From a virus: a stretch of 24,412 bases of DNA. Made by a program: the position numbers and the translations under genes. The notes under the pieces were generated by a model. The model was given only the letters and a program-made list of their open reading frames with translations, did not search any database and was not told where the DNA came from. Of the stretch, positions 1,632 through 7,551 are shown piece after piece (position 1 is the first letter of the stretch; each line of letters opens with the position of its first letter). The DNA lies in IMG/VR virus record IMGVR_UViG_3300032462_000086, positions 1 through 24,412 of that record. One strand, given 5' to 3'.

Positions 1632-1849
1632 GTGCGTCAAGGGACATAGGTGGGCATCGGTTTGGGCGATTGACTGCGATCGAAAAATGCGGCGTTTACA
1701 ATCGCGAGGCGGTGTGGGCGTGTTCCTGCGACTGTGGTAAACAAACTCAGGTTAAGGTGGGGAATCTGGTGCGGGGAAACACGAAAAGCTGTGGGTGTTT
1801 GCGGAGCACCAAAATTTCAAAGCCGGAAGCGGGTGCAACTTATGACTGA
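1628..1849 (+). CDS. small zinc-ribbon phage protein
   Basis: A 73-aa protein of a widespread small phage family with the pattern G-x-R-F-G-R-L-T near the N-terminus (GGHRFGRLTAIEK), a central W-x-C-x-C-D-C-G (WACSCDCG, residues 30-37) and a final N-T-K-S-C-G-C-L (residues 51-58). The cysteine clusters probably bind one zinc ion. The domain commonly stands next to, or is fused to, HNH or AP2-type homing endonucleases, where it is thought to contact DNA; that role is inferred here. Its start overlaps the previous stop (ATGA), and its end overlaps the terminase start by 8 bases, implying translational coupling. Confidence 0.75.
   Translation: MSASRDIGGHRFGRLTAIEKCGVYNREAVWACSCDCGKQTQVKVGNLVRGNTKSCGCLRSTKISKPEAGATYD
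1831..1844 (+). repeat. GGGTGCAACTTATG repeat at the terminase start
   Basis: This is the second exact copy of the 14-mer, ending in the chosen ATG of the large terminase gene. Because it also forms the 3' end of the zinc-ribbon gene, it encodes residues of both proteins. Confidence 0.55.
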
Positions 1850-4800
1850 CCAGCCAAAGCCGACAAAACTCCCCTTTGATGTTGATATTTACCATGAGTT
1901 GCAGCGGGAACGTGACCGGCGGAAGCTGGAGTTGTATCGTCCTTACGTCAAGCAGCAGCAGTTCCACAAAGCAGGAGGCACGCATAGGGAAATTTTACTT
2001 CGCGCAGGCAATCAGTGTCTTGGCCCGTGGTCGCTTATGGAAACGGATTCTGGGTTGCACCGCTGCGGAGATATTTTTTTCGAGGAAGGTGCCTGTGTTC
2101 AATCGTGGGGCGGTGAATCTCAATGTACTGCTCAAATTTCTTACGGAATCCTTCGGGGGATTGAGCCAGCGTTTCGGATAGTTCTGGAATCGGGTCGTTG
2201 GTTCGATTGTTCGTCCAGTCACCAAATATTGACCGAACACGGCTATTGCCGTATCGACGAGCTAATGTCTCTCTCAAATGGTCTGCGTTTGATTCATAAA
2301 CGCGAAGGTTATCAGGCCAGTTGTGTTGCGTATGGCTATCTCGGTGGTCAATTACCTCAGTTGGCAGCAGATAGCGTCCAAGATGAACTCCCATCACAAG
2401 CCGATGTTCAGCGACATAGCCTGATATTTTCGCATGAGGATGCAGAGGCACGAATATATCAATATACCAATTTTTTTGGAGAATCCGACCTCCATTCCAT
2501 CTTTGCTTGTGGCCGCTTGCAGCGCGAGGCCCTGTACGACAGGTTCGCAGCGCCAAAGATGGAATCAGTCTTTCTACCACTGACAAGTGGACACCAAAAA
2601 AATCTGCAACTTCTTGCTGAGTTTTCACCTAAGATTCTATCATCATCTGAATCTGTTGTTTGTTTCTCAGAAGAGACTTCCCACTCATTTGAACGGGGGC
2701 AATCCCTCGACGGCTTAAATAAGCCTGAATCTGGATTTTTGTTAGGCCAAGCATTTCCGCCATCTCCTGTCGCCCCTATCCTTGACTATTCATCTCAAGA
2801 ATTTTATCGTGATGATTCTCACATGCAGATTTTTTACCCATTGCAATCTCCTCAGTTAATTGGTGGTGAAAGAATAATAGCATACGTCGATATTGGTTTT
2901 CAGCCAATAGTGGACTGTCACGTTCCAAATACAAATAATTATATACTGCAAGGTGTTATCCATCATAATTGTGGCAAAACCTATTCAGCAGCAGCCGAGA
3001 TAGCCATGCACGCTACTGGTAAATATGCGCCATGGTGGGAGGGCCGCAGATTTAAGAAAGCCCCAGTTATCTGGTGTGCTGGTGTGACTGGTGAGGTTAC
3101 AAGGGATACTATCCAGCGTCTTCTAGTGGGTGATTTAGCTAATCCTGGGACTGGCCTTATTCCTGCTGGTGATATAGTGGAAACGGTGCCAAGCAGGGGC
3201 GTTGCGGGACTGATGGATACGCTGCTTGTTAAGCACACAAGTGGTCAAAACACAAGGTTGCGCCTCAAAAATTACGAGCAAGGCCGAGAAAAATTTCAGG
3301 CCGATTCTGTTCAAATCGTGTGGCTGGATGAAGAGTGCGATATTGATTTGTATATGGAAGCCCTGACCAGAACCAATGCTACTGGTGGTTTTCTGATTAT
3401 GACATTTACCCCTCTCAAGGGCATGAGCCAAGTTGTTAGGCGTTTTCTTGTTGATAAGTCCCCTGACAGGTGTGACGTGAATATGACGATTGAGGATGCG
3501 CTGCATATACCTCCGGCAGAGCGCGAAAAAATTATTGCGAGTTATCCTGCGCATGAACGTGCTGCCCGCCTGCGCGGTGTTCCGATGATGGGTTCCGGCC
3601 TGATTTTCCCCGTTGCCGAAGAACTGATTGCCTGTGATCCGATACCTGTTGAAAAAATCCCGAACCACTGGCAGCAACTTGGTGCGCTGGATTTTGGGTG
3701 GGATCATCCGACAGCGGCGGTGAAGATTTTGCATAATACGGATGATGATATTATCTATGTGACTGGGTGCTATAGACGCAGCGAAGCTACGCCGATGCAC
3801 CATGCCAGTGCTTTGAAGCCATGGGGCAATATCAAGTATGCGTGGCCACATGATGGGTTACAGCATGATAAGGGCAGCGGAATCCCGTTGGCCGATATGT
3901 TTCGCAAAGAAGGATTGGACTTGCTACCTGACCATGCCCGTTTCCCTGATGGCAGCAATTCGGTTGAGGCCGGTATTCTGGAAATGCTGACGCGGATGGA
4001 AACAGGGCGGTTCAAGGTGTACCGACATCTGGCAGAATGGTTTGAAGAGTTCAGGATGTACCATCGCTCTGAAGGCAAGATAAAAAAGGAATATGACGAC
4101 ATACTTTGTCTGCATCCAAAAACTAAAATTATAACCGACAAGGGGGCTATCGAAATTGCCAGCCTTGTCGGCACGTCTGGGAAGGTTCTAACCAGAAATG
4201 GTAAATGGGCAAAATACAAAAATTGTAGATTGACCAGGAAGGATGCTGAACTGGTCAAGGTCACTTTTAGTGATGGGCATGAGATTCTTTGCACCCCAAA
4301 CCACAAATTGCTTTCTACTAATAACAAGTGGATATGCGCTATTGACTCTATTGGTATGGTATGCCATGATGCCATAGCGAATAGTAGAGATAAGCAATGG
4401 AAGAAATTAAATATGGAAGAGCGATTTACAGGCTCGGCGATCCCTTTAATCCAAACTATTACATCAGTAAGGGCCATCGTTTCTTGCATTGTGTTATATA
4501 TGAAAAACATTTTGGAAAAATCCCTCCTAAGCACCACATTCATCACAGGAACGGGAACAAGAGAGATAATGACATTTCTAATTTGGAATGTGTGCTGGGT
4601 AGCAAGCATTTATCAGAACACCATAAAGGGCATACAAGAAAACCCGTGTGGGCTTACGAAGCGCAAAAAAAGTGGCGAGAATCTGAAGAGGGTAAAAAAT
4701 TTCTTCATGAGTCTGGTAAAAAAAATCAGCACTTCATGCGCGTCATTCGTCAATTTAAGTGTGAGTGCTGTGGGGTTGATTTTTCAACGCAAGATGTTGG

Positions 4801-5285
4801 TGGGAACCGCTTTTGCTCCAATTCTTGCAAATCCAAGTGGCGCAGAAGTTCGGGGATTGATGATGTTCAAAAGGAATGCCGTTGGTGCAACTCCACCTTT
4901 CTTCGGAACAAGTATGACAAAGGCGTATATTGCTCAAAATCATGCGGAAGGAAAGCATGGACATCTTCTCCAAAAGGTCGAGCGCACATTGAGCGTCTTG
5001 CAAGTAAAGCCCGTGGAGGAAAGGAGCGACACATATTGCATGGAAGTAATGGGCACACATGCAATGGCAGTTGAGAATGGCGCAATAGTCCATAATTGCG
5101 CGTCCAGATATAGCATAATGTGCCTCCGTTTTGCCACCTATATTTTCCATGCAACGGGTAGTAATAAGCCCGGAACGATACAGCGAAACTACGACCCATT
5201 ATCCCTTGACCATGTGAAGCAGGATATTGGTGGGGTTAAGACATCATACGATCCCCTTTCATTAGATTATTTACGCAACAACTAG
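1842..5285 (+). CDS. terminase large subunit with two inteins
   Basis: The ATPase-nuclease that packages phage DNA into the prohead through the portal. The precursor is 1147 aa. Removing two inteins (precursor residues 59-376 and 756-1085) leaves a 499-aa protein, a normal length. After splicing, Walker A reads AGNQCGKT (near residues 55-62), Walker B VQIVWLDEE (near 172-180), the coupling segment MTFTPLKG (near 202-209), and nuclease motifs GALDFGWDHP (near 296-305) and KEYDDIL-CASRY (near 431-442). Both inteins interrupt catalytic motifs, so the protein should be inactive until spliced. The start chosen overlaps the upstream gene; the frame is open further upstream but that part overlaps the zinc-ribbon gene. 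The C-terminal tail repeats YDPLSLD. The stop is TAG, with an AGAAGGA ribosome site for the next gene overlapping it. Confidence 0.93.
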   Translation: MTDQPKPTKLPFDVDIYHELQRERDRRKLELYRPYVKQQQFHKAGGTHREILLRAGNQCLGPWSLMETDSGLHRCGDIFFEEGACVQSWGGESQCTAQISYGILRGIEPAFRIVLESGRWFDCSSSHQILTEHGYCRIDELMSLSNGLRLIHKREGYQASCVAYGYLGGQLPQLAADSVQDELPSQADVQRHSLIFSHEDAEARIYQYTNFFGESDLHSIFACGRLQREALYDRFAAPKMESVFLPLTSGHQKNLQLLAEFSPKILSSSESVVCFSEETSHSFERGQSLDGLNKPESGFLLGQAFPPSPVAPILDYSSQEFYRDDSHMQIFYPLQSPQLIGGERIIAYVDIGFQPIVDCHVPNTNNYILQGVIHHNCGKTYSAAAEIAMHATGKYAPWWEGRRFKKAPVIWCAGVTGEVTRDTIQRLLVGDLANPGTGLIPAGDIVETVPSRGVAGLMDTLLVKHTSGQNTRLRLKNYEQGREKFQADSVQIVWLDEECDIDLYMEALTRTNATGGFLIMTFTPLKGMSQVVRRFLVDKSPDRCDVNMTIEDALHIPPAEREKIIASYPAHERAARLRGVPMMGSGLIFPVAEELIACDPIPVEKIPNHWQQLGALDFGWDHPTAAVKILHNTDDDIIYVTGCYRRSEATPMHHASALKPWGNIKYAWPHDGLQHDKGSGIPLADMFRKEGLDLLPDHARFPDGSNSVEAGILEMLTRMETGRFKVYRHLAEWFEEFRMYHRSEGKIKKEYDDILCLHPKTKIITDKGAIEIASLVGTSGKVLTRNGKWAKYKNCRLTRKDAELVKVTFSDGHEILCTPNHKLLSTNNKWICAIDSIGMVCHDAIANSRDKQWKKLNMEERFTGSAIPLIQTITSVRAIVSCIVLYMKNILEKSLLSTTFITGTGTREIMTFLIWNVCWVASIYQNTIKGIQENPCGLTKRKKSGENLKRVKNFFMSLVKKISTSCASFVNLSVSAVGLIFQRKMLVGTAFAPILANPSGAEVRGLMMFKRNAVGATPPFFGTSMTKAYIAQNHAEGKHGHLLQKVERTLSVLQVKPVEERSDTYCMEVMGTHAMAVENGAIVHNCASRYSIMCLRFATYIFHATGSNKPGTIQRNYDPLSLDHVKQDIGGVKTSYDPLSLDYLRNN
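2035..2628 (-). CDS. HNH homing endonuclease encoded antisense inside intein 1
   Basis: A 197-aa reading frame on the strand opposite the terminase. Residues 71-120 form a clear HNH domain: YVAEHRLVMGVHLGRY, then EVIDHRDS (D94-H95), HNWPDNLRV (N103, N107) and a final D-H-L (H117). This matches the phage HNH_3 pattern. The N-terminal residues 3-21 (TQQEVADFFGVHLSVVERL) look like a helix-turn-helix. Homing endonucleases cut intein-less alleles so that repair copies the intein. The GTG start is the first possible after an in-frame TAG; the family-like sequence continues upstream of that TAG, so this may be a truncated gene. Its last third is antisense to splicing blocks A and B. Confidence 0.8.
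   Translation of the reverse strand: MKTQQEVADFFGVHLSVVERLIPSLALRTCRTGPRAASGHKQRWNGGRILQKNWYIDIFVPLHPHAKISGYVAEHRLVMGVHLGRYLLPTEVIDHRDSHTQHNWPDNLRVYESNADHLRETLARRYGNSRVRSIFGDWTNNRTNDPIPELSETLAQSPEGFRKKFEQYIEIHRPTIEHRHLPRKKYLRSGATQNPFP
2629..2841 (-). pseudogene. upstream in-frame part of the antisense HNH gene, with two TAG codons
   Basis: The HNH frame continues upstream to an ATG at 2841-2839, preceded at the ideal 6-base distance by GAGGAG (2853-2848). Two TAG codons interrupt it, at 2778-2776 and 2631-2629. The sequence after each looks like helix-turn-helix: GRQEMAEMLGLTKIQIQAYL after the first and TQQEVADFFGVHL after the second, so each TAG sits just before a recognition module. The complete gene would have 268 codons. 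The middle base of each TAG lies opposite the third base of a terminase-frame proline codon (CCT), so both stops could arise without altering the intein. Decay is the simplest reading; suppression or internal restart are alternatives. Confidence 0.6.
2848..2853 (-). promoter_or_regulatory. Shine-Dalgarno GAGGAG for the antisense HNH gene
   Basis: On the minus strand GAGGAG is followed by ATTGCA and ATG, near-perfect spacing. This supports an antisense gene that originally began at 2841. Confidence 0.55.
2879..2907 (-). promoter_or_regulatory. weak antisense promoter candidate
   Basis: On the minus strand TTGGCT, a 17-base spacer and TATGCT each match the sigma-70 hexamers at 4 of 6 positions. 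They lie 26 bases upstream of the GAGGAG site. The location is right for expressing the antisense endonuclease, but the match is weak. Confidence 0.2.
4107..5096 (+). other. intein 2, in the nuclease motif of the terminase
   Basis: A 330-aa protein-splicing element. Block A starts with Cys1 (CLHPKTKIITDKG) and block B lies near residues 54-72 (GHEILCTPNHKLLS, with T63 and H66). The C-terminal blocks are RSDTYCMEV and HAMAVENGAIVHN, with Cys as the next extein residue. Splicing joins KEYDDIL to CASRYSIM, the last acidic motif of the terminase nuclease. Residues from about 97 to 322 match no known domain and are the out-of-frame reading of an HNH gene on the same strand. Confidence 0.9.
4397..5074 (+). 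CDS. HNH homing endonuclease in the -1 frame inside intein 2
   Basis: A 225-aa protein read in another frame of the same strand, wholly inside intein 2. Residues 26-78 are an HNH domain: GHRFLHCVIYEKHFGKIPP, then HHIHHRNGNKRDNDISNLE (H49-H50, N62), then HLSEHH. Two zinc ribbons follow, C122-x2-C125 with C140-x3-C144 and C161-x2-C164 with C179-x3-C183, typical DNA-binding tails of phage HNH proteins. It begins right after the N-terminal splicing domain and its final ~20 codons overlap the C-terminal splicing block. The upstream ribosome site is weak (GAGA). The frame is intact with no internal stop, so it could still drive homing of intein 2. Confidence 0.82.
   Translation: MEEIKYGRAIYRLGDPFNPNYYISKGHRFLHCVIYEKHFGKIPPKHHIHHRNGNKRDNDISNLECVLGSKHLSEHHKGHTRKPVWAYEAQKKWRESEEGKKFLHESGKKNQHFMRVIRQFKCECCGVDFSTQDVGGNRFCSNSCKSKWRRSSGIDDVQKECRWCNSTFLRNKYDKGVYCSKSCGRKAWTSSPKGRAHIERLASKARGGKERHILHGSNGHTCNGS
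5169..5184 (+). repeat. 16-bp direct repeat copy 2, in terminase C-extein
   Basis: CCCGGAACGATACAGC, identical to the sequence at the 3' end of tRNA-Gln. Here it encodes part of K-P-G-T-I-Q-R. Recombination between the copies would delete the two small cysteine-rich genes and most of the terminase with both inteins. Confidence 0.5.
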
Positions 5286-5296
5286 AAGGAATTTTT

Positions 5297-5518
5297 ATGA
5301 AATATTTTATTTTATTTTGTCTTTTTGCTAATTCTGCATACGCGGATTCTCAGCAGGATTATGAGATGCGCAAACAGCAAGCGCAAATAGACGCCATGCA
5401 ACGCGATATGGAGCAGCAAAAACGAGATATGCTAAATCGAATGGAGCAGCAACGGAACGAAGCGGAAAGCCGCCGGAAATCGAATGAGTATTATGAGAGG
5501 GCAAAACAATGGGATTAA
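5297..5518 (+). CDS. exported small coiled-coil protein
   Basis: A 73-aa protein with a probable signal peptide (MKYFILFCLFANSAYA, cleavage after A-Y-A near residue 16). The mature part is highly charged and Gln/Glu/Arg-rich (residues 17-70), with a heptad-like pattern expected to form a coiled coil. It would act in the periplasm. Location and shape recall spanin-type or other envelope-acting lysis accessories, but there is no lipobox and no membrane anchor after cleavage, so no function is assigned. The ribosome site AGAAGGA is strong and overlaps the terminase stop. Its end overlaps the next gene by 10 bases. Confidence 0.65.
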   Translation: MKYFILFCLFANSAYADSQQDYEMRKQQAQIDAMQRDMEQQKRDMLNRMEQQRNEAESRRKSNEYYERAKQWD

Positions 5519-6183
5519 ATAGCCGCGTATTCAAGTTGATGACGGACTATGCTAAATCGGGGGGTAAGGCACTTGCTGCTGGCTATCCTGATATGCTGGT
5601 GACGCAACAAGATTTGCTAGATGCTGGGATTTCGCCTGAGGTTATCATACCTGCTGATGAGGATTCGGAAAAAATTGTTCGTGAGCATGGTGTGAATATC
5701 CCGTGCGCGTATGATGCAAAATCCGTGTTTACTGCCCTGAATTATGATTTGGATGTGGTTGACATCAACGTCAGTCGGAGTGGCGAGCGTTACACGGATT
5801 TGAACTATCCTCATCATATCGGCTCTTATGATTTGGTGTTGGACCACGGCACTATTGAGCATTGCTTCAATATCGCGCAGGCGGCAATTAATCTGGCGGA
5901 AGCGGTTAAAGAAGGTGGCATTATCGTGCAACACCTTCCGATGACGATGCTTAATCATGGGTTTTATAATATTAACCCGACATGGTTCCATGCGTTGTAT
6001 TCAGCGGATAACGGGTTTGAACTGCTGCATCTTGAGGTAATGGCGGGGGATAAGCATTCTCAGGGAGTTGTCCCTGCACATAATCATTTTGTTGTTAATA
6101 CGACTAGCTCGTTGCTGACTTGTGTGGCGCGACGGATTGAGCAAAAGAAAATTCTCTACCCAACTCAGGAAAAATACAAATGA
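5509..6183 (+). CDS. class I SAM-dependent methyltransferase-like protein
   Basis: A 224-aa soluble protein. The core segment YDLVLDHGTIEHCFN (residues 107-121) followed by INLAEAVKEGGIIVQHLPM (127-145) matches motifs IV-VI of small-molecule or sugar methyltransferases, where an aspartate-rich strand and a helix precede a strand with G-G. A preceding VVDINVSR (83-90) fits the acidic end of strand 2, which normally binds the SAM ribose. The glycine-rich motif I is not obvious, so the N-terminal half may be divergent. It overlaps the next gene, another methyltransferase, by 4 bases. With the following glycosyltransferase it suggests a glycan-building cassette; the substrate is unknown. Confidence 0.65.
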   Translation: MGLNSRVFKLMTDYAKSGGKALAAGYPDMLVTQQDLLDAGISPEVIIPADEDSEKIVREHGVNIPCAYDAKSVFTALNYDLDVVDINVSRSGERYTDLNYPHHIGSYDLVLDHGTIEHCFNIAQAAINLAEAVKEGGIIVQHLPMTMLNHGFYNINPTWFHALYSADNGFELLHLEVMAGDKHSQGVVPAHNHFVVNTTSSLLTCVARRIEQKKILYPTQEKYK

Positions 6184-6881
6184 TTGATGTTACTTTGATA
6201 CCCCCACCTTGCATGAGCCTTAATGATGCGGCTGAATTGTATGTTCCGGCATTTCGGCGCGGCATTGAATATACCTCACTTTGCCGCGTTGAGGGGGATG
6301 TACTGGAGTTTGGCACTAATCATGGCTTTACTGCCAGAGTTCTGGCTCAGACAATGGCGGCGCATCGTCATTCCGGCATGTTAATGCTTTATGATTCGTG
6401 GGAGGGTTTTCCAGAGATGGTGGGGGCTGATGCTGGTTGTCCCGAAGTTATCTATGGTGCATGGAAACAGGGTGACTGTAACCCGCGTGATGCTGATCAT
6501 GATGTAAAGATACATGCTGCTCTTACTCCCATATTGAATGGACGTGTCCGCACAATCAAGGGGTATTATAGCGATACGTTGCCGCACAATCTTCCTGTCA
6601 AGGCATCGGTGGTGCATATCGACTGTGATTTATACTCATCGACTATGGAAGTGCTATCTGCTCTGATTGATAATAATACTTTAAGTGATGGTGCTGTCTT
6701 GTACTTTGATGAGTTCAATAATAATGTAGCATCAAATAAGTTTGGCGAGCGTAAAGCGGTTCATGATATTTTTTGTAATTATCAGGACGGTCAACGTTTT
6801 ACTGCTAATGGCAAATATAGCATTGAACTATGGTTCACTTACGGTTGGTCTGGTTATGCATTCTTAGTGCATAGGGGGTGA
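6180..6881 (+). CDS. TylF/MycF-family O-methyltransferase
   Basis: A 233-aa protein of the macrocin O-methyltransferase type, which methylates sugar hydroxyls using SAM and a metal ion. Visible motifs are GDVLEFGTNHGFTARVLA (residues 39-56, SAM-binding loop), LYDSWEGFPE (70-79, acidic residue plus the family's W-E-G-F), SDTLP (131-135), VHIDCDLYSS (145-154, metal-binding aspartates) and DGAVLYFDEF (170-179). All expected motifs are present and the length is normal, so it is probably active. Coupling with the upstream methyltransferase (ATGA) and the downstream glycosyltransferase suggests joint modification of a sugar on virion, host surface or DNA. Which one cannot be told. Confidence 0.8.
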   Translation: MIDVTLIPPPCMSLNDAAELYVPAFRRGIEYTSLCRVEGDVLEFGTNHGFTARVLAQTMAAHRHSGMLMLYDSWEGFPEMVGADAGCPEVIYGAWKQGDCNPRDADHDVKIHAALTPILNGRVRTIKGYYSDTLPHNLPVKASVVHIDCDLYSSTMEVLSALIDNNTLSDGAVLYFDEFNNNVASNKFGERKAVHDIFCNYQDGQRFTANGKYSIELWFTYGWSGYAFLVHRG

Positions 6882-6882
6882 T

Positions 6883-7551
6883 ATGTGGTTCATGCCGACA
6901 TTCAACCGCCCCGAACAGTGCAAAGCGGTCATCGAACAAATTAACAAGGTGGGCTGCTCAACTTCTGGTATTGTCTTTGTGCAAGGCAGAGAAATGCAAG
7001 CGGAGTACGAAAAAGCACTGGATGGCACTTTGCCTGATAACTGGGTGCTGTATTTCCATGCCACTAATATTGGTTGTGACCCTGCAATGAACTGGTGTTT
7101 TAAGAATTTTCCGAATGAACCATTTTACGGATTAGTATGCGATGATGAGTATGTTTATACCGAGGGATGGGATAAAATCCTATCGGAAGCGGCTGGTGAA
7201 TGGAATATTTCGCACGGTAATGATGGCTGGCAATCGGAGAATCGTATCCATAGCTATGTAACCGTTGGTGGGGAATTGGTGCGAGCTTGTGGGTGGTGGT
7301 CATTGCCAGGACTTTGGCATTGGTTCCATGACGATGTGCAGGAGGCACTGGCAGCAGCGTGTGGGTTGCGTGTATACTGCAAGGATGTGAAAACAGAGCA
7401 TAAGCATTATATGGCGGGTAAGGTGCAGAAAGATGCTACTTATGTTTCGGCAGAAGAAGGGTCGGAAAAAGACCGTCAAACCTACTACGATTGGCGGTTA
7501 AATGAGTTCCCATTTCTTGTGGGGAAAATCATGCGGGCGAAACGAATATAA
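6883..7551 (+). CDS. glycosyltransferase-like protein (GT-A type)
   Basis: A 222-aa soluble protein. The N-terminus MWFMPTFNRPEQCKAVIEQI has the P-T-x-N-R-P start of family-2-like glycosyltransferases. A central LVCDDEYVYTEGWD (residues 84-97) supplies the D-x-D-like metal and nucleotide-sugar site at about 87-89. The later W-H-W-F-H-D-D (near 147) resembles the acceptor-side acidic motif. It would transfer a sugar from a nucleotide donor in the cytoplasm. A strong ribosome site (AGGGGG) overlaps the previous stop. It ends the cassette that separates the terminase from the head genes. Confidence 0.7.
   Translation: MWFMPTFNRPEQCKAVIEQINKVGCSTSGIVFVQGREMQAEYEKALDGTLPDNWVLYFHATNIGCDPAMNWCFKNFPNEPFYGLVCDDEYVYTEGWDKILSEAAGEWNISHGNDGWQSENRIHSYVTVGGELVRACGWWSLPGLWHWFHDDVQEALAAACGLRVYCKDVKTEHKHYMAGKVQKDATYVSAEEGSEKDRQTYYDWRLNEFPFLVGKIMRAKRI

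Follow-up and report, generated by a model that had tools for sequence, protein, structure and literature searches.

In fractured genes, reportedly described by Dassa in 2009, inteins are split and a free-standing endonuclease gene lies between the halves. The inteins in the terminase large subunit (TerL) of mycobacteriophages are canonical, with a homing endonuclease domain encoded in frame (PMC5050341). The ShiLan domain of phage methylases hides an HNH gene on the same strand as its host, and its authors found neither intein motifs nor splicing (PMC11855218). Antisense homing endonuclease genes have been described in nuclear group I introns, with expression and cleavage shown for I-DsqI (PMC9548176). 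In the open-access literature we found no intein reported to contain an endonuclease gene in antisense or out of frame.

The window, meaning the entire 24,412-nucleotide (24.4-kb) IMG/VR virus contig analysed here, contains phage structural genes and a TerL gene with two in-frame inteins (Table 1). Intein 1 resembles canonical TerL inteins in its Walker A insertion, splicing motifs, sporadic distribution and probable homing. In canonical inteins, however, endonuclease and splicing domains share one polypeptide, whereas the endonuclease of intein 1 has its own gene, on the antisense strand. As in the ShiLan domain, the HNH is out of frame and the insert leaves the reading frame of the host gene uninterrupted; however, the HNH of intein 1 is antisense and both TerL inserts have intein splicing domains, so neither is a ShiLan domain. 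Intein 2 has a ShiLan-like frame layout, but is an intein. Intein 1 shares with the group I introns an endonuclease antisense to a self-splicing element, although their host is an RNA intron in rDNA and hence involves no double protein coding. With fractured genes it shares an endonuclease encoded apart from the splicing polypeptide, but there both host gene and intein are split, whereas here TerL is uninterrupted and two genes overlap. TerL is a single open frame of 1183 aa (500 aa of extein once both inteins are removed), ruling out a fractured gene or split intein. An Rfam scan of the window for a group I intron RNA core returned only tRNAs, and we rejected a group I intron as the identity of the insert.

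Table 1. Features at the TerL locus of the window (slashes mark intein boundaries).
Feature	Position	Strand	Basis
TerL gene with two in-frame inteins	1842..5285	+	Pfam Terminase_6N 3.4e-27, Terminase_6C 1.2e-12
Intein 1, 318 aa, at TerL Walker A; GNQ/CLGPW...HHN/CGKT, class-1-like termini	2016..2969	+	Termini; AF2; Foldseek; invariant residues
Linker between splicing halves of intein 1 (approximate), mostly predicted disordered	2340..2820	+	pLDDT; codon position 2 unconstrained
Open HNH frame of 197 aa in antisense, starting at a GTG that abuts a TAG	2035..2628	-	ORF; family matches; 83% identity to L001
Complete antisense frame (268 codons, HTH-HTH-HNH) as relatives have it; two TAGs here	2035..2841	-	Intact 268-aa counterpart L001:4785-5591
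In-frame TAG, antisense codon 22	2776..2778	-	L013 has TAT
In-frame TAG, antisense codon 71, GTG directly after	2629..2631	-	L013 has CAT
HNH core, EHRLVM..EVIDH..HNWPDNL..SNADHL	2275..2409	-	Invariant residues
Shine-Dalgarno AGGAG ahead of antisense ATG at 2841	2848..2852	-	Window sequence; relatives likewise examined
Candidate promoter CTGAAA-18-TATTAT, TG ahead of -10, 32 nt upstream of ATG	2874..2903	-	Consensus match
Intein 2, 330 aa, in RNaseH-like domain; EYDDIL/C...VHN/CASRY	4107..5096	+	Pfam Intein_splicing 1.5e-9; TIGR01445 intein_Nterm 1.5e-9
A further nested HNH gene, of zinc-finger type (225 aa), in +2 relative to intein 2	4397..5074	+	Pfam HNH_3 9.3e-15; phrog_15471 4.2e-33

An earlier note on this DNA had described the intein frame as open over 318 codons and devoid of an endonuclease, and this was borne out: the frame is open, has intein termini at Walker A, and matches no endonuclease domain in Pfam, PHROG or NCBIfam, so intein 1 does not belong with the inteins that carry an in-frame endonuclease. 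C1, H69, H317 and N318 are invariant among 32 intein 1 members and the +1 residue in the window is Cys, giving the residues of a class 1 intein (C or S at position 1, a block B His, a C-terminal HN, and C, S or T at +1). Both Pfam Intein_splicing (E=0.06) and the NCBIfam intein models fell below cut-off for the window copy. In the AF2 model, the splicing-domain blocks reach a pLDDT of about 90, while residues 104-146, 151-156 and 212-265 are below 50; a Foldseek search with this model gave mini-inteins as the best matches (6frg, E=2.9e-6), identifying a HINT splicing fold. Motifs, predicted fold and the stop avoidance described below argue that intein 1 would excise itself by splicing, restoring a functional terminase.

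The proposal of an HNH protein on the opposite strand also held, since the 197-aa protein matches phrog_10730 (E=3.7e-17) and phrog_20891 (1.2e-15). Pfam HNH_3, for which a strong match had been expected, stayed below cut-off (E=0.003). Residues E145, H146, R147, L148, H166, H173, N174, P176, D177, N178, L179 and H188 are invariant among 31 HNH members, and together the phrog_10730 match and the invariant H/N/H residues identify an HNH catalytic motif. The predicted helix-turn-helix was recovered as well; the minus frame upstream of the 197-aa ORF matches HTH/HNH families (phrog_7545, E=1.3e-11; phrog_664, 1e-4). The HTH-HTH-HNH model has a pLDDT of 78, and its best match in a PDB fold search, I-HmuI, was not significant (E=0.63). 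HNH proteins may serve roles besides homing. As for the 268-codon frame that the earlier note had credited with an ATG and a good Shine-Dalgarno, both signals are present but the frame is not open in the window, with its TAGs at codons 22 and 71. Neither TAG occurs in the relatives, and the full-length ones share the start MG(K/R)xS. Because TAG terminates TerL and other genes in the window, and a search for a suppressor tRNA found none, recoding of TAG in this phage seems unlikely, and we rejected its reading as a sense codon.

Several relatives have a promoter-like site at an equal distance from their ATG, the best being that of L013 (TTGCCA-18-TATAAT). Scores of at least 9/12 were reached in 5 of 14 relatives, compared with 3.3% of control positions. 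The candidate promoter overlies conserved Ile-Ile codons of the intein, so codon choice could explain part of the match; in L019 and L041 these Ile codons are ATA, which is absent from the extein stretch compared in both. Position and partial conservation are suggestive of antisense HNH expression from a promoter and Shine-Dalgarno located inside the C-terminal splicing block.

In L001, which shares the intein, the 268-aa antisense ORF is intact and 83% identical to the window over the 197-aa part (66% for the intein frame). Searching IMG/VR with an HNH alignment returned 54 loci, 53 of them antisense in one fixed phase inside a TerL-strand open frame (536-884 aa), with no internal stops in the HNH match at any of the 54. 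In all 53, the intein ends in HN before C, S or T, followed by the TerL Walker A. Pfam or NCBIfam identified a terminase in most of the host frames tested, with L062 matching intein models alone. The antisense layout is also present on two MAG contigs and in Pectobacterium phage Ymer, within a 754-aa frame annotated as hypothetical, and seven other Pectobacterium/Dickeya phages have the HNH match. A reverse search with intein-frame alignments found 27 loci, including 26 full-length inteins, and 27/27 score with the HNH profile, although these queries used conserved stretches partly in the overlap (e.g. the pattern YQASC) and are not fully independent of the HNH. Apart from L002/L214 (one contig), all full-length loci from this search keep an antisense ORF 268 codons or longer. 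Both searches support the earlier suggestion of a nested antisense homing-type gene in an uninterrupted intein, and neither of the outcomes that had been set against it (no HNH match, or an unconserved minus frame with an endonuclease in the plus frame) occurred.

With the two genes in this phase, position 2 of each intein codon pairs with the wobble base of an HNH codon. We pooled mismatch rates at codon positions 1/2/3 over 10 disjoint pairs. Position 3 is the highest in the C-extein (0.25/0.19/0.50), and the C-splicing block likewise shows ordinary protein-coding constraint (0.18/0.15/0.43). The linker has its highest rate at position 2 (0.19/0.40/0.15; position 2 vs 3, p=1.8e-51), while all positions are constrained where the HNH gene overlaps the N-splicing domain (0.13/0.17/0.19). 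The same reversal of the codon-position pattern is seen in the window/L013 pair. When the HNH was recoded with synonymous codons, about 6 intein-frame stops were expected, yet 0 were observed, with P(0) at most 0.021 in 31/31 sequences. The absence of the expected stops indicates that the linker is kept open though predicted disordered and, together with the codon-position reversal, that both frames are under selection. The HNH shapes the linker, whereas both frames shape the part that overlaps the splicing domain. The earlier description of the plus-strand linker as meaningless thus stands only in part, since it is kept stop-free and overlaps the real splicing domain in its N-terminal third.

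Could only one of the two frames matter? Antisense open frames can come about by chance, and the antisense ORF might be a mere product of intein codon usage. Given HNH matches down to E=1e-17, a single phase in 53/54 loci, the stop avoidance, and opposite codon-position patterns in linker and extein, we reject this as extremely improbable. Conversely, the HNH could be the only functional product; the TerL-strand frame would then be read through without splicing, as has been suggested for the ShiLan domain. A disordered linker would fit such a read-through, but invariant splicing residues, the conserved HN before C, S or T, a confident intein fold and the ordinary constraint on the C-splicing block would not. 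Furthermore, the insert interrupts the Walker A of the packaging ATPase, so its removal should be needed; we consider read-through very unlikely.

Selection on both frames in the family leaves the state of the window's own copy to be judged. We lean towards its antisense HNH being already a pseudogene, with only the intein frame at work and the layout real in the family, as part of a cycle of invasion, decay and loss. Its TAGs stand where L013 has sense codons, the nearly invariant E151 is Gly, and first- and second-position changes in the HNH core number 7/17 on the window branch vs 1/8 on the L013 branch (outgroups used; small counts). L002 has its HNH partly deleted and the intein frame still open, an asymmetry to be expected of an essential host gene paired with a dispensable endonuclease. 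However, the 197-aa part with HTH2 and HNH is open and still similar to that of L001, shorter natural relatives lack the first HTH, and the GTG right after the second TAG could permit re-initiation. A functional truncation, in which the 197-aa HNH is made by stop-start re-initiation where TAG and GTG abut, draws on these same features: HTH2 and HNH are kept in the GTG frame, and naturally short relatives such as L045-L058 start at HTH2. This is a possible but rather doubtful reading, as the GTG has no Shine-Dalgarno, the first TAG demands a further re-initiation, and no TAG-suppressing tRNA was found. The two TAGs, the Glu to Gly change and the window-branch changes indicate decay or, at best, a shortened protein; judged from its sequence, the window's antisense copy is probably truncated or decaying.

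Intein 2 and its nested HNH were absent from the earlier note. The same frame relation occurs in L003, L004, L005 and L011; carriers of it in TerL include Acinetobacter phage Highwayman, Tetrasphaera phage TJE1, Rhodobacteraceae phage LS06-2018-MD07 and a faecal contig. Scanning IMG/VR with the single intein 2 HNH sequence found no relative, but an alignment query did; among the best 80 relatives, 62 are nested in the +2 phase and 18 are not. Most examined intein 2-type members lie near the C-terminal nuclease site, their boundaries being approximate as they were set by pattern. Over nine pairs, intein position 2 is the most variable in the overlap, and about five intein-frame stops would be expected if the frame were unconstrained.

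Most related TerLs found in a TerL search are intein-free at both sites. Between L055 and L058, the inteins are a few percent apart, against 30% at position 3 of the exteins. This sporadic distribution and apparent recent transfer would be in keeping with homing of intein 1. In the same region, the TerL of another relative (L160) has a different, in-frame intein of LAGLIDADG type (motif read by eye). The TerL frame is broken, or the extein match split by an extra stretch, in L193, L194, L195 and L200-L204, which may possibly hold another inserted element.

We infer that splicing, cleavage and homing all take place in this system. Intein 1 would be mobile, with a homing endonuclease encoded not as an intein domain but by its own gene on the antisense strand of the same DNA. 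The TerL strand would yield a mini-intein with a filler linker that removes itself, and the other strand an HTH+HNH protein, probably from the promoter and Shine-Dalgarno in the C-terminal splicing block. This protein would cut intein-free TerL alleles at Walker A, and repair would copy the intein across. In the window phage, two amber codons in the HTH half would leave at most a shortened HNH, probably decaying. Intein 2 would repeat the principle elsewhere, its unrelated HNH being read in +2 from the TerL strand. We give this whole explanation, comprising a mobile intein 1 with an antisense gene, a decaying window copy and a parallel intein 2, a probability of about 0.88.

Slightly less firmly, though still with good confidence, we propose that phage TerL hosts widespread double-coded inteins, in which splicing and homing are assigned to overlapping, separately expressed genes. 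The antisense class at Walker A and the +2 class at the RNaseH-like site would use different HNH families and have arisen independently. The usual view is of an endonuclease domain inserted in the intein; here, the two functions would reside in different proteins yet be tied to the same DNA. An essential gene needs the splicing frame open, so the endonuclease could lose function only by changes harmless to that frame. Splicing and endonuclease expression could also be regulated separately. As a natural and deep collection of genes overlapping fully in antisense, the family further allows constraint to be measured on both frames. Surveys of phage inteins restricted to the intein's own frame have probably mislabelled many mobile inteins as endonuclease-free.

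Several other features surround TerL in the window. Just 5' of it, a 73-aa ORF (1628-1849) matches an internal part of the phrog_374 HNH endonuclease (E=2.4e-19) and is possibly a remnant of a third endonuclease gene. Further upstream, a tRNA-like match at 1246-1306 (Rfam, 40 bits; absent from the ARAGORN output) adjoins a tRNA-Gln at 1311-1382; by eye, it is a short form with a CCA anticodon, and its D arm is not clear. The group at 5509-7551, whose first gene (5509-6183) has no PHROG match, consists of methyltransferase-like and glycosyltransferase-like genes located between TerL and a portal-type gene.
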